A stretch of DNA of 64,000 bases from Nisaea sediminum (lineage in GTDB: Bacteria; Pseudomonadota; Alphaproteobacteria; Thalassobaculales; Thalassobaculaceae), in assembly GCF_014904705.1 (NCBI RefSeq), contig NZ_JACZCQ010000006.1, forward strand, positions 310,001-374,000, read 5' to 3'. A program made the translations under genes and the position numbers. Each line of letters begins with the position of its first letter. Positions within the stretch are counted from its first letter, which is position 1. This document shows positions 11,273 to 13,271 of this stretch, piece after piece. The notes under the pieces were generated by a model. The model worked only from the letters and a program-made list of their open reading frames with translations. It was not told the DNA's origin and did no database searches.

Positions 11273-11608
11273 ATGCCGGGAACGAACGAACCGCGTACGG
11301 TGAACCTGCCGCTCTCGGGCGGAGTCACTCAAACCATCAACCCCTGGAAATGGATTTTCGACTGGGCCGGAAGCAGTTTCAGCCTGGTCAACGTCAATCT
11401 CGGCCGTTCCGCAGATCCTGAGATGGAGCAGGAGATCCTGACCGAGGTCGGTTCCTACGGGCGCCAGCTCGGGCGCATGGGCGGGGCGATGCAGGTGCTG
11501 GTCGACAGGCTCGACCGCTCGACCCTCACCAAAGAGGAGCGGCATGCGATCGAGGCTTTCGAGGTACAGCTACGCGAGATCGAGGACCTGAAGCGAAAGC
11601 GGCGCTGA
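11273..11608 (+). CDS. Hypothetical 111-residue protein
   Basis: Starts at the ATG at 11273 behind a perfect AAGGAG (11261-11266); an in-frame GTG at 11222 lacks a ribosome site. Residues 1-45 contain a short hydrophobic stretch (WKWIFDWAGSSFSLVNV) too weak for a firm membrane call. Residues 50-111 are charged and helical, possibly coiled-coil, ending in a basic tail (LKRKRR). It is not recognised as a named family. It is divergent from the lipase gene, with about 105 bases between the starts, and shares a terminator with the convergent small gene downstream. Confidence 0.65.
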   Translation: MPGTNEPRTVNLPLSGGVTQTINPWKWIFDWAGSSFSLVNVNLGRSADPEMEQEILTEVGSYGRQLGRMGGAMQVLVDRLDRSTLTKEERHAIEAFEVQLREIEDLKRKRR

Positions 11609-11612
11609 TACG

Positions 11613-11669
11613 AAAAAACAGTCAGCGCAGCCCGGAGATGCCTCGGCATCCCTGAGCGTCGCTGACTGT
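11613..11669. terminator. Bidirectional terminator
   Basis: Ten-pair stem ACAGTCAGCG (11618-11627) with CGCTGACTGT (11660-11669), enclosing a second small hairpin (GATGCC/GGCATC, 11637-11650). The plus strand continues CTTTAT; on the minus strand the stem is followed by six T (plus-strand A run 11613-11618). It serves the two convergent genes at 11608 and 11719. Confidence 0.75.
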
Positions 11670-11718
11670 CTTTATGAAGCTTGAGCAGGCCGGAAGCGGT
11701 TGCTTCGGGCCCTGCCGG

Positions 11719-11889
11719 TCAGACCGTGATGTCGACCCCGCCGGAGGACGCGGCTTGCGCGCCGTTCGACTGGGCGATCTGCTTCGCCGTCTCGACGGCG
11801 CTGCTGACGACCTGGGCCTGAACCAGCTGCTGCTGCTTGTCGGACCGGAACGCGAAGATCGCGACGGTCGACTGCACTGGCGTTGTCAT
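11719..11889 (-). CDS. YjfB-like small protein (putative motility protein)
   Basis: 56 residues from the ATG at 11889, placed eight bases after AAAGGAG on the minus strand. A longer open frame upstream to 12105 has no such ribosome site. The pattern, a short helix rich in Gln/Val/Ala (KQQQLVQAQVVSSAVETAKQ) and a C-terminal G-G-V-D-I-T-V, resembles the YjfB-type putative motility proteins, whose members end in a similar G-x-x-[IV]-D-I-x-[IV]. That match is from memory of the family pattern. No flagellar genes are adjacent, though four chemoreceptors lie later in the window. Confidence 0.6.
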   Translation of the reverse strand: MTTPVQSTVAIFAFRSDKQQQLVQAQVVSSAVETAKQIAQSNGAQAASSGGVDITV

Positions 11890-12076
11890 GGGCGGACTCC
11901 TTTCTGGCACTTCCGCTTTTCGAACCCCCGCACTATAGGGCGCAGGGCTTAAGGAGTCATGAAGGATCGTATTGGATTTTATGGGCTTTCTCACAGAAAT
12001 GCCGTCGACATGCGAGCGCTCGGGGAACGCACGCAAATCCGGTTGCCGGGCCGACGAGACCGTGCGAGAAAGCGGC

Positions 12077-12127
12077 ATGACCACGTGCACCGAAATCCGC
12101 CGCAATTTCTGGTGGCGCTCCTTCTAG
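12077..12127 (+). CDS. trpL: trpS leader peptide with tandem Trp codons
   Basis: Sixteen codons: MTTCTEIRRNFWWRSF. TGG codons 12 and 13 (12110-12115) are adjacent, four codons before the TAG. GAGAAAG lies a few bases before the ATG. The ORF ends 124 bases upstream of tryptophanyl-tRNA synthetase. A short peptide with adjacent Trp codons next to its stop is the hallmark of ribosome-mediated trp attenuators, and the final WWRSF resembles the WWRTS ending of the enterobacterial trp leader. The ORF and its codons are seen directly; a regulatory role is inferred. Confidence 0.65.
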   Translation: MTTCTEIRRNFWWRSF

Positions 12128-12191
12128 GAGCGGCACGTCGTCCATTTCCGTTTTTGTTCGACCCTTGCCGCCGCGATCCGGCTGACAAGGG
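12116..12191 (+). promoter_or_regulatory. Attenuator-like alternative pairings ahead of trpS
   Basis: Three pairings can be drawn by hand. 1:2 is CGCTCC (12116-12121) with GGAGCG (12127-12132), spanning the leader stop. 2:3 is GCGGCA (12130-12135) with TGCCGC (12166-12171). 3:4 is CCCTTG (12162-12167) with CAAGGG (12186-12191), supported by inner CCG/CGG. They overlap in the order expected of an attenuator. The 3:4 stem has no T run after it; the only T run (12151-12155) follows a weaker outer pairing, so transcription or translation control are both open. Confidence 0.45.
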
Positions 12192-12251
12192 CACCACGCG
12201 ACTCTCTCCCGTCTTACCGGTCCGGCGGCTTCCCCAAGAGGAGCCAAACCG

Positions 12252-13271
12252 ATGTCCGAAAATCTTGAAACCCGTCCCGTCATCCTGACGGGCGACCGGC
12301 CGACAGGCCCGCTGCATCTCGGCCATTATGCCGGATCGCTGAAGAACCGGGTCGCGCTGCAGCACACCCACAAGCAGTACCTCCTGCTCGCCGATTGTCA
12401 GGCGCTGACCGACAATGCCGGCGATCCCGAAAAGGTCCGGCGCAATGTGCTGGAAGTCGCACTCGATTATCTCGCCGCCGGAATCGACCCCGAGGCGACG
12501 ACCATTGCCGTACAGTCCGCGCTGCCGGCGCTCGCCGAGCTGGGCCAGCTCTATCTGAACTTCGTCAGCGTCGCACGTCTCGAACGTAACCCCACGATCA
12601 AGGCCGAGATCCGCCAGCGCGGCTTCGGGCGCGAGCTGCCGGCCGGCTTCCTCTGCTATCCGGTCGCGCAGGCGGCGGACATCACCGGTTTCAAGGCCAA
12701 TGTCGTGCCGGTCGGCGAGGACCAGATCCCGATGATCGAGCAGACCGTCGAGATCGTTCGCCGCGTGAACCGCCAGAGCGGCCGGGCGCTGCTGCCGGAG
12801 CCGGAAGCGCTGGTCCCGCCGGTCGGCCGCCTGCCCGGCATCGACGGCGCGGCGAAGATGAGCAAGTCGACCGGCAATGCCATTCCCCTTTCGGCCTCGC
12901 AGGAGGATATCCGCCAGGCAGTGCGCCGCATGTATACCGATCCCGGCCATCTGCGCGCCTCCGACCCGGGCAAGGTCGAGGGCAACGTCGTCTTCACCTA
13001 TCTCGACGCCTTCTCCGACGATGCGGAGGGCGTGGCGGAGCTGAAGGTCCGATACCGTCGCGGCGGACTCGGCGACATGAAGGTGAAAGGACATCTCGAG
13101 GAGATCCTGCAGCGACTGGTCTGGCCGATCCGCCAGCGCCGGGCCGAGTTCGCGAAAGACCCGGGCGAGGTCGTGAGCATCCTTCGCGCAGGTACGGAAA
13201 AGGCGCGCGAGATCACCGAGGCGACGATGGAGGAAGTGCGCAGCGCCCTCGGGCTCTTTCGCTGGGCCTGA
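12252..13271 (+). CDS. trpS: Tryptophanyl-tRNA synthetase
   Basis: 339 residues, normal for the class Ic enzyme. It charges tRNA-Trp with tryptophan using ATP. The HIGH-type signature is HLGH at 22-25 and the KMSKS loop is at 202-206. AGAGGAG (12237-12243) sits eight bases before the ATG. The 360 bases before the gene hold the small yjfB-like start region and then the Trp-rich leader ORF described separately. The last bases of the ribosome site (AGGAGC) could pair with GCTCCT at 12117-12122 inside the leader, another possible point of control. Confidence 0.97.

Follow-up and report, generated by a model that had tools for sequence, protein, structure and literature searches.

A leader RNA with tandem tryptophan codons precedes an auxiliary tryptophanyl-tRNA synthetase gene in Nisaea sediminum and may control its translation

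Introduction

The attenuator of the Escherichia coli trp operon (trpL) combines tandem Trp codons near the stop codon of a leader peptide with a 1:2, 2:3 and 3:4 topology of RNA pairings. In translational attenuators of the ermC type, a drug-bound ribosome stalls in the leader and frees a Shine-Dalgarno (SD) sequence that is held in a hairpin. Attenuation of an auxiliary trpRS gene of Streptomyces was reportedly studied by experiment by Vecchione and Sello in 2010. In the available portions of the papers cited here, candidate attenuators before trpS genes of Streptomyces, including S. avermitilis trpS2, were predicted in 2005 (PMC1262725), and a Trp leader of S. lividans, trpL2 (MMTRTCTQLWRAA), is annotated before trpS (PMC8079986). 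In Sinorhizobium meliloti, the trpL transcript begins at the trpL ATG (PMC7298713). Resistance to inhibitors and a role under stress have been discussed for a second tryptophanyl-tRNA synthetase (TrpRS) (PMC9437257, PMC6804068).

Here we describe a leader region in a 64,000-nucleotide stretch of N. sediminum DNA (hereafter, the window). An initial annotation, made from the letters alone, had inferred a Trp leader with attenuator topology before a TrpRS gene; the element turned out to be conserved and covarying in relatives, and its output may be translational. The locus shares with E. coli trpL the tandem Trp codons near the stop and the 1:2/2:3/3:4 topology, but it has no Rfam match (E ≤ 10) and no U tract, and its SD lies in a hairpin. 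As in ermC-type systems, a leader stall is proposed to release a hairpin-held SD; however, the input would be Trp-tRNA and not a drug-bound ribosome, and the opened state is itself a proposal. The Streptomyces trpS leaders, in the parts of the papers available, likewise place an attenuator and a leader peptide with Trp codons ahead of trpS. By description, they differ in belonging to another phylum, and the locus in the window is without a U tract but carries a long-range helix (P3) and an SD hairpin. Finally, S. meliloti trpL-trpE(G) is also an alphaproteobacterial Trp leader, with an ATG-first transcript of the kind predicted for the window, but its described target is a biosynthesis gene and its described output a transcription terminator (PMC7298713, available portion).

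Results

The leader peptide and the controlled gene

The features of the region are collected in Table 1. The 16-codon ORF with two adjacent Trp codons that had been placed 124 bases before the synthetase gene was confirmed: it starts with ATG, ends with TAG (12125-12127), and the 124-base gap leads to the trpS2 ATG at 12252. The region thus has the short leader ORF of trp-type attenuators, with its tandem Trp codons for regulation.

Table 1. Features of the trpS2 leader region (positions in the window)
Feature	Positions	Strand	Basis
Promoter-like site: TTGCCG (12043-12048), 17 nt, GAGAAA (12066-12071) at the conserved -10 place; transcription predicted to start at the leader ATG or next to it	12043-12071	+	profile of 69 leader upstream regions
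Leader peptide ORF, MTTCTEIRRNFWWRSF then stop	12077-12127	+	sequence; kept in relatives
Tandem Trp codons TGG TGG (nearly certain sensor)	12110-12115	+	WW in 69 of 82 elements
P1 (1:2) hairpin CGCTCC/GGAGCG, overlaps leader stop	12116-12132	+	98.4% of cells paired; 4 of 6 pairs changed on both sides
P2 (2:3) GCA (12133-12135)/TGC (12166-12168) and GTCG (12137-12140)/CGAC (12159-12162)	12133-12168	+	84.3% and 93.2% of cells paired; 4 of 7 pairs changed on both sides
P5 (3:4) hairpin CCCTTG...CAAGGG, without U tract	12162-12191	+	local fold z < -1 in 60 of 64 elements; window z -2.4
P3, long-range helix between segment 3 (12169-12178) and the bases next to the anti-SD (12218-12227)	12169-12227	+	90.0% of cells paired; 8 of 10 pairs changed on both sides
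P4, SD hairpin GGCTTCC (12227-12233)/GGAGCC (12240-12245), contains SD GAGGAG	12227-12245	+	79.6% of cells paired; 5 of 5 pairs changed on both sides
trpS2, auxiliary TrpRS (TrpRS II type)	12252-13271	+	TIGR00233; structure relatives; second genome copy

The trpS2 product (339 amino acids) matches TIGR00233 with 234 bits (cut-off 177), and its closest solved relatives are 1yi8 and 2a4m, of which 2a4m is named TrpRS II. The E value against 2a4m was 1.7e-120, versus 3.6e-70 for the next group. The same genome encodes a second, canonical-like TrpRS that is 34% identical to the trpS2 product. Therefore, the controlled gene is the spare copy, being closer to TrpRS II than to the canonical type and accompanied by a second copy. 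The initial annotation was thus right that a TrpRS gene lies behind a Trp leader, but the gene, named trpS there, encodes an auxiliary TrpRS II, and the canonical-like trpS lies elsewhere. The covariance model described below had no match at the canonical-like locus, and autoregulation of a housekeeping trpS was therefore rejected. Within the genus, trpS2 is patchy (two of five genomes, the window's included) and all five genomes have a copy that is only 33-35% identical. A classical leader at this genome's trpE was also looked for: one TrpE-type locus was found, with no short ORF containing at least two W codons within 300 nt upstream.

Across 82 elements, the leader has WW in 69, an aromatic residue near a single W in 11 and another single-W form in two. 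By script, two to five residues follow the last W in 81 of the 82 elements; the leader of L018, which lacks an ATG start, has four. Upstream of WW, the peptide shows no clear conservation (131 synonymous versus 264 non-synonymous changes in the 82 elements), and by these counts we rejected the idea that the peptide is kept for its own sake. The sister species in the genus (L083) has YW in place of WW together with a mismatch in P1, which counts against our best explanation.

Distribution of the element

Relatives of trpS2 were confirmed at 431 loci in genome contigs, and the best 80 were kept (44 from Moraxellaceae including Acinetobacter, and 36 others). Among these best 80 of 431, the element precedes the auxiliary trpS at 32 of the 36 loci from outside Moraxellaceae, being missing from four Cupriavidus loci, and the model matched at none of the 44 Moraxellaceae loci. 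Thirty of those 32 leaders have WW; L018 and L027 have one W. This recurrence of one architecture before the auxiliary trpS of relatives (32 of 36, best 80 of 431) is the strong evidence against a chance arrangement.

A covariance model (R1) was built from 26 sequences, the window included. In the window's genome, it found the window with E 9e-21, and the next best match had E 0.79. Its matches were in two of 36 genomes of the window's order (both in the window's genus), 15 of 386 genomes of the class at E ≤ 0.01 (six strong and nine probably chance), 14 of 397 of the phylum at E ≤ 1e-4, 24 of 397 of the order of genome G511 at E ≤ 1e-5 and 14 of 369 of the order of genome G573 at E ≤ 1e-5. 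The matches at L095-L103 (E 1.9e-4 to 0.0073) and L141 (E 2.8e-5) were taken as chance; none adjoins trpS2, and those at L095 and L141 fall inside other genes. When the same 386 class genomes were searched with the trpS2 protein, 36 matched at E ≤ 1e-60. The element was found in all seven genomes with a 67-100% identical trpS2, the seventh (L108) carrying a terminator-bearing variant, and in none of the 29 with a 39-59% identical trpS2 (23 of these loci were rechecked with the model). Duplicates were omitted (L158 and L159, equal to L157; L143, L145 and L150, equal to L012, L035 and L019). L165, L169 and L171, which had no model match, are outside the statistics; on visual inspection, a leader with one W was seen in L169 and one with WW in L171.

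On plasmids of Klebsiella and Deinococcus (L191, L192), trpS2 has WW leaders and, by eye, terminator-like hairpins; R1 matches the Klebsiella leader weakly (16 bits) and the Deinococcus one not at all. At L135, trpS2 matches in two overlapping pieces, apparently in different frames, so that the gene may be frameshifted, and its leader looks intact. In L190, which is labelled Streptomyces and is AT-rich, a scan of 320 nt revealed no short ORF containing W, and the locus did not serve as a Streptomyces control.

RNA pairings and covariation

Three pairings had been claimed in the initial annotation, and they are complementary at the given bases (CGCTCC/GGAGCG, GCGGCA/TGCCGC and CCCTTG/CAAGGG). 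Its 1:2 and 3:4 hairpins proved to be conserved; the P3 helix and the P4 SD hairpin had been missed, although it had suspected that the trpS SD takes part, and the SD indeed sits in the covarying hairpin P4. P5 competes with P2 and P3 for segment 3, and the TGG codons fall outside P1-P5. Thus, mutually exclusive 1:2, 2:3 and 3:4 pairings are present, P1 and P2 covarying and P5 being conserved. Seven of the ten model pairs of P3 form in the window. The absence of a T run was borne out as well: no terminator-like site was found in 11500-12600, so that an intrinsic terminator with a U tract at 3:4, as in trp-type attenuators, is missing from the window; it is present in a minority of relatives. 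The fold of 12040-12270 beats shuffled sequences (z -2.99; two of 200 as good); that of 12117-12254 alone is unremarkable (z -1.48; 15 of 200 as good). Rfam models (T-box, Trp leader and others) gave no match over the window at the gathering score, nor in 11950-12300 at E ≤ 10, and a T-box or other Rfam RNA was ruled out on this basis.

Covariation was measured on an alignment to R1 of 65 rows, namely 64 chosen loci and one spurious reverse-strand row (L009). This row is counted in the covariation of P1-P4, of the segment 2/anti-SD pairing and of the 6-bp 2:3 pairing; it is absent from the calculations on P5 local folds, on transcripts ending before the SD, on P3 in the window and on forced states. 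Six terminator-bearing or odd elements of 70 (L033, L093, L094, L108, L138 and L164) were left out, and 12 elements found later, in the search of the order of G573, are outside the alignment. For P1-P4 together, 89.8% of cells were paired and 21 of 28 pairs had changed on both sides. The number of cells changed on both sides was 160, versus 47.4 ± 5.6 in shuffles (0 of 500 as high) and 28-61 in slid controls. These figures lean upwards, since the rows had been aligned to fit the structure, the sequences share ancestry and six elements had been omitted. In a first alignment of 26 sequences, 13 cells had changed on both sides versus 6.1 in shuffles (1 of 500); covariation was weaker there (seven pairs changed on both sides, equalled by 54 of 500 shuffles), and RNAalifold gave a poor structure. 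Conservation of WW and compensatory stem changes in relatives, on which the initial annotation could be judged, were thus both found.

The 6-bp 2:3 pairing of that annotation is complementary, but it is near-invariant (91.7% paired versus 90.2% in shuffles); therefore, covariation says little for or against it. A pairing of segment 2 with the anti-SD likewise has little covariation of its own (86.5% paired versus 84.8% in shuffles; score equalled by 30 of 500). The local cost of opening the SD averaged 7.1 kcal/mol versus 4.9 kcal/mol in shuffles, with p ≤ 0.05 in 16 of 70 elements and p > 0.5 in eight of 70. In the window, it was 8.6 versus 5.9 ± 2.0 kcal/mol (p 0.08). A target SD held in a hairpin, as in ermC-type systems, is therefore seen in the covariation of P4 and in this group effect. 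Terminator-like signals were found by a loose rule in 23 of 82 elements, the window not among them, and about fourteen were judged convincing; plain intrinsic terminators in P5 occur, for example, in L093, L094, L108, L164, L180, L182-L185 and L187.

Folding with and without a stalled ribosome

With the usual value for the ribosome footprint, arithmetic places the edge of a ribosome that has either Trp codon in its A site at about 12122-12125, where segment 1 is covered and segment 2 is not. In transcripts ending before the SD, the probability of the segment 2/anti-SD pairing exceeded 0.3 in 35 of 64 stalled and in none of 64 released cases; the window had 0.27. Folding with and without a stall had been proposed along with the initial annotation, and on whole leaders the outcome was divided. 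Compared with the released state, a stall at the last Trp codon lowered the cost of SD opening in 28 of 62 elements and raised it in three, but compared with the ribosome at the stop codon it was lower in 13 of 62 and higher in 10. These summaries (n = 62) leave out eight terminator-bearing elements.

We also computed mean SD opening costs in forced states of 64 elements. These were 6.65 kcal/mol for P1+P5, 4.35 for stalled P5 and 2.70 for stalled P2+P3; with segment 1 free, P1+P2+P3 gave 5.88 and P1+P3 gave 3.41. Therefore, masking of segment 1 contributes no less than P2+P3 does, and much of the fall in cost is due to the removal of that segment. In the stalled state, P5 was favoured in 55 of 64 elements and P2+P3 in four (window: P2+P3 -24.0, P5 -40.8). 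Stalled P2+P3 is thus not the equilibrium state, least of all in the window, and would have to be held by a kinetic trap. The change of SD opening on stalling that was computed for the window itself varies with the boundaries chosen, from 5.4 to 4.5 in the whole-leader calculation versus from 3.3 to 5.4 in the forced-state one.

Start of the leader transcript

In a position profile of 69 leaders, numbered from the ATG, TTG is seen at -36 to -34, TG-n-[T/A]-A-T at -15 to -10 and C at -1, with no SD-like signal upstream of the ATG. The GAGAAAG that had been read as the SD of the leader is doubtful in this role: it sits where relatives carry the -10 element, and the 69 leaders are without an SD-like signal. 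In the window, the resemblance to a -10 element is weak, and the promoter scan did not list the site. Judging from the aligned upstream sequences, the leader mRNA is probably leaderless, with transcription predicted to begin at the ATG. The trpS2 leader is not alone in its intergenic region, which also belongs to a divergent small ORF on the minus strand (11719-12105) that has a promoter-like site (11960-11932).

Other genes behind the element

The 24 matches in the order of G511 comprise 16 before trpS2 and eight before an isochorismatase-family gene, with trpE, as far as seen, not among the targets. The isochorismatase-family assignment is by tblastn in eight of eight and by Pfam PF00857 for one, and these leaders read YWRF. 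The loci concerned (L152-L159; L172:670-1329) come from two families of that order, and all eight proteins end in -DVC. In the order of G573, the 14 matches comprise eight before trpS2, five before trpG and one before a TrpRS-like gene. Four trpG genes were identified by tblastn and that of L137 by NCBIfam TIGR00566. The trpG loci (L137, L177, L178, L179 and L181) have WW leaders, with trpD downstream by eye in L137; about 90-225 nt separate the end of the element from the trpG match, which leaves room for an extended N-terminus or a short ORF in between. L188 has an element with a FWYRSYT leader and then a diverged TrpRS-like ORF, whose match to trpS2 is confined to two pieces of about 38% identity. 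At L138 and L174:692-1204, an element with a YWRSFT leader precedes a GNAT acetyltransferase gene whose product ends in -IDVC.

Discussion

We consider it rather probable that the element is a ribosome-mediated attenuator whose input is tRNA-Trp charging, whose target is the spare trpS2 and whose output, in the window, is translation. The role of the Trp codons as the sensor is nearly certain, and a translational output in the window is likely. When Trp-tRNA is ample, the ribosome would pass WW and reach the stop codon, P1 and P5 would form, and the trpS2 SD would stay shut in P4. When Trp-tRNA is scarce, the ribosome would wait at WW and cover segment 1, leaving segment 2 free for segment 3, with loss of P5. 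Segment 3 could then pair beside the anti-SD (P3), and segment 2 could also pair with the anti-SD itself. The SD would thereby be eased open and the spare TrpRS would be made.

The same Trp-codon sensor might instead act on transcription, with P5 as a terminator that is unusual or assisted by Rho, and with a secondary role for the SD hairpin. We regard this as unlikely, though it deserves serious weight: P5 has a stable local fold in most elements (z < -1 in 60 of 64) and contains a plain intrinsic terminator in some relatives (23 of 82 by the loose rule), and the available portions of two papers describe transcription attenuation at S. meliloti trpE(G) (PMC7298713) and predict a candidate attenuator ahead of S. 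avermitilis trpS2 (PMC1262725). However, P5 of the window is not followed by a U tract, and the SD hairpin P4 covaries. The missing U tract also counts against a joint action at both levels, in which a termination-prone P5 and SD closure would be mixed in proportions that vary by lineage; by eye, L005, L180, L184 and L185 show a terminator-like P5 together with an SD hairpin, and for the window we think such a mixture improbable. Least credible, and very improbable in our judgement, is a structured leader without Trp sensing, in which WW would be retained merely as bases that the RNA structure needs. Thirteen of the 82 elements do lack WW, and the peptide before it is not clearly conserved, but the two to five residues that follow the last W in nearly all elements, the position of the TGG codons outside P1-P5 and the mostly Trp-related targets found (trpS2, trpG) all speak against it.

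The initial annotation had allowed that the mechanism might be otherwise new. Trp leaders before trpS are known in Streptomyces, from the available text of PMC1262725 and PMC8079986; the SD hairpin and P3 are new as far as we searched. In a literature search of open-licence papers, mostly at the level of titles and abstracts, we recognised no report of a trpS leader in Alphaproteobacteria. Within the scope of these searches, the spread in Pseudomonadota, the lineage-dependent output and the extra target genes are new as well. A wider reading, which we put forward tentatively and hold somewhat less probable than not, is that of a portable sensor of Trp charging. One leader-RNA family would stand before auxiliary trpS, trpG, isochorismatase, acetyltransferase and TrpRS-like genes, its output switched between U-tract termination in 3:4 and SD closure via the conserved long-range helix; the YW variants may read Tyr and Trp charging.

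With this leader and its RNA, the spare enzyme is probably produced only while charged tRNA-Trp is scarce. If this is true, the second TrpRS in Pseudomonadota would have a clear control logic, the spare enzyme being switched on when Trp-tRNA is short, whatever the cause. Moreover, one leader family would have two outputs by lineage, and the change from a terminator to SD control would be directly testable.
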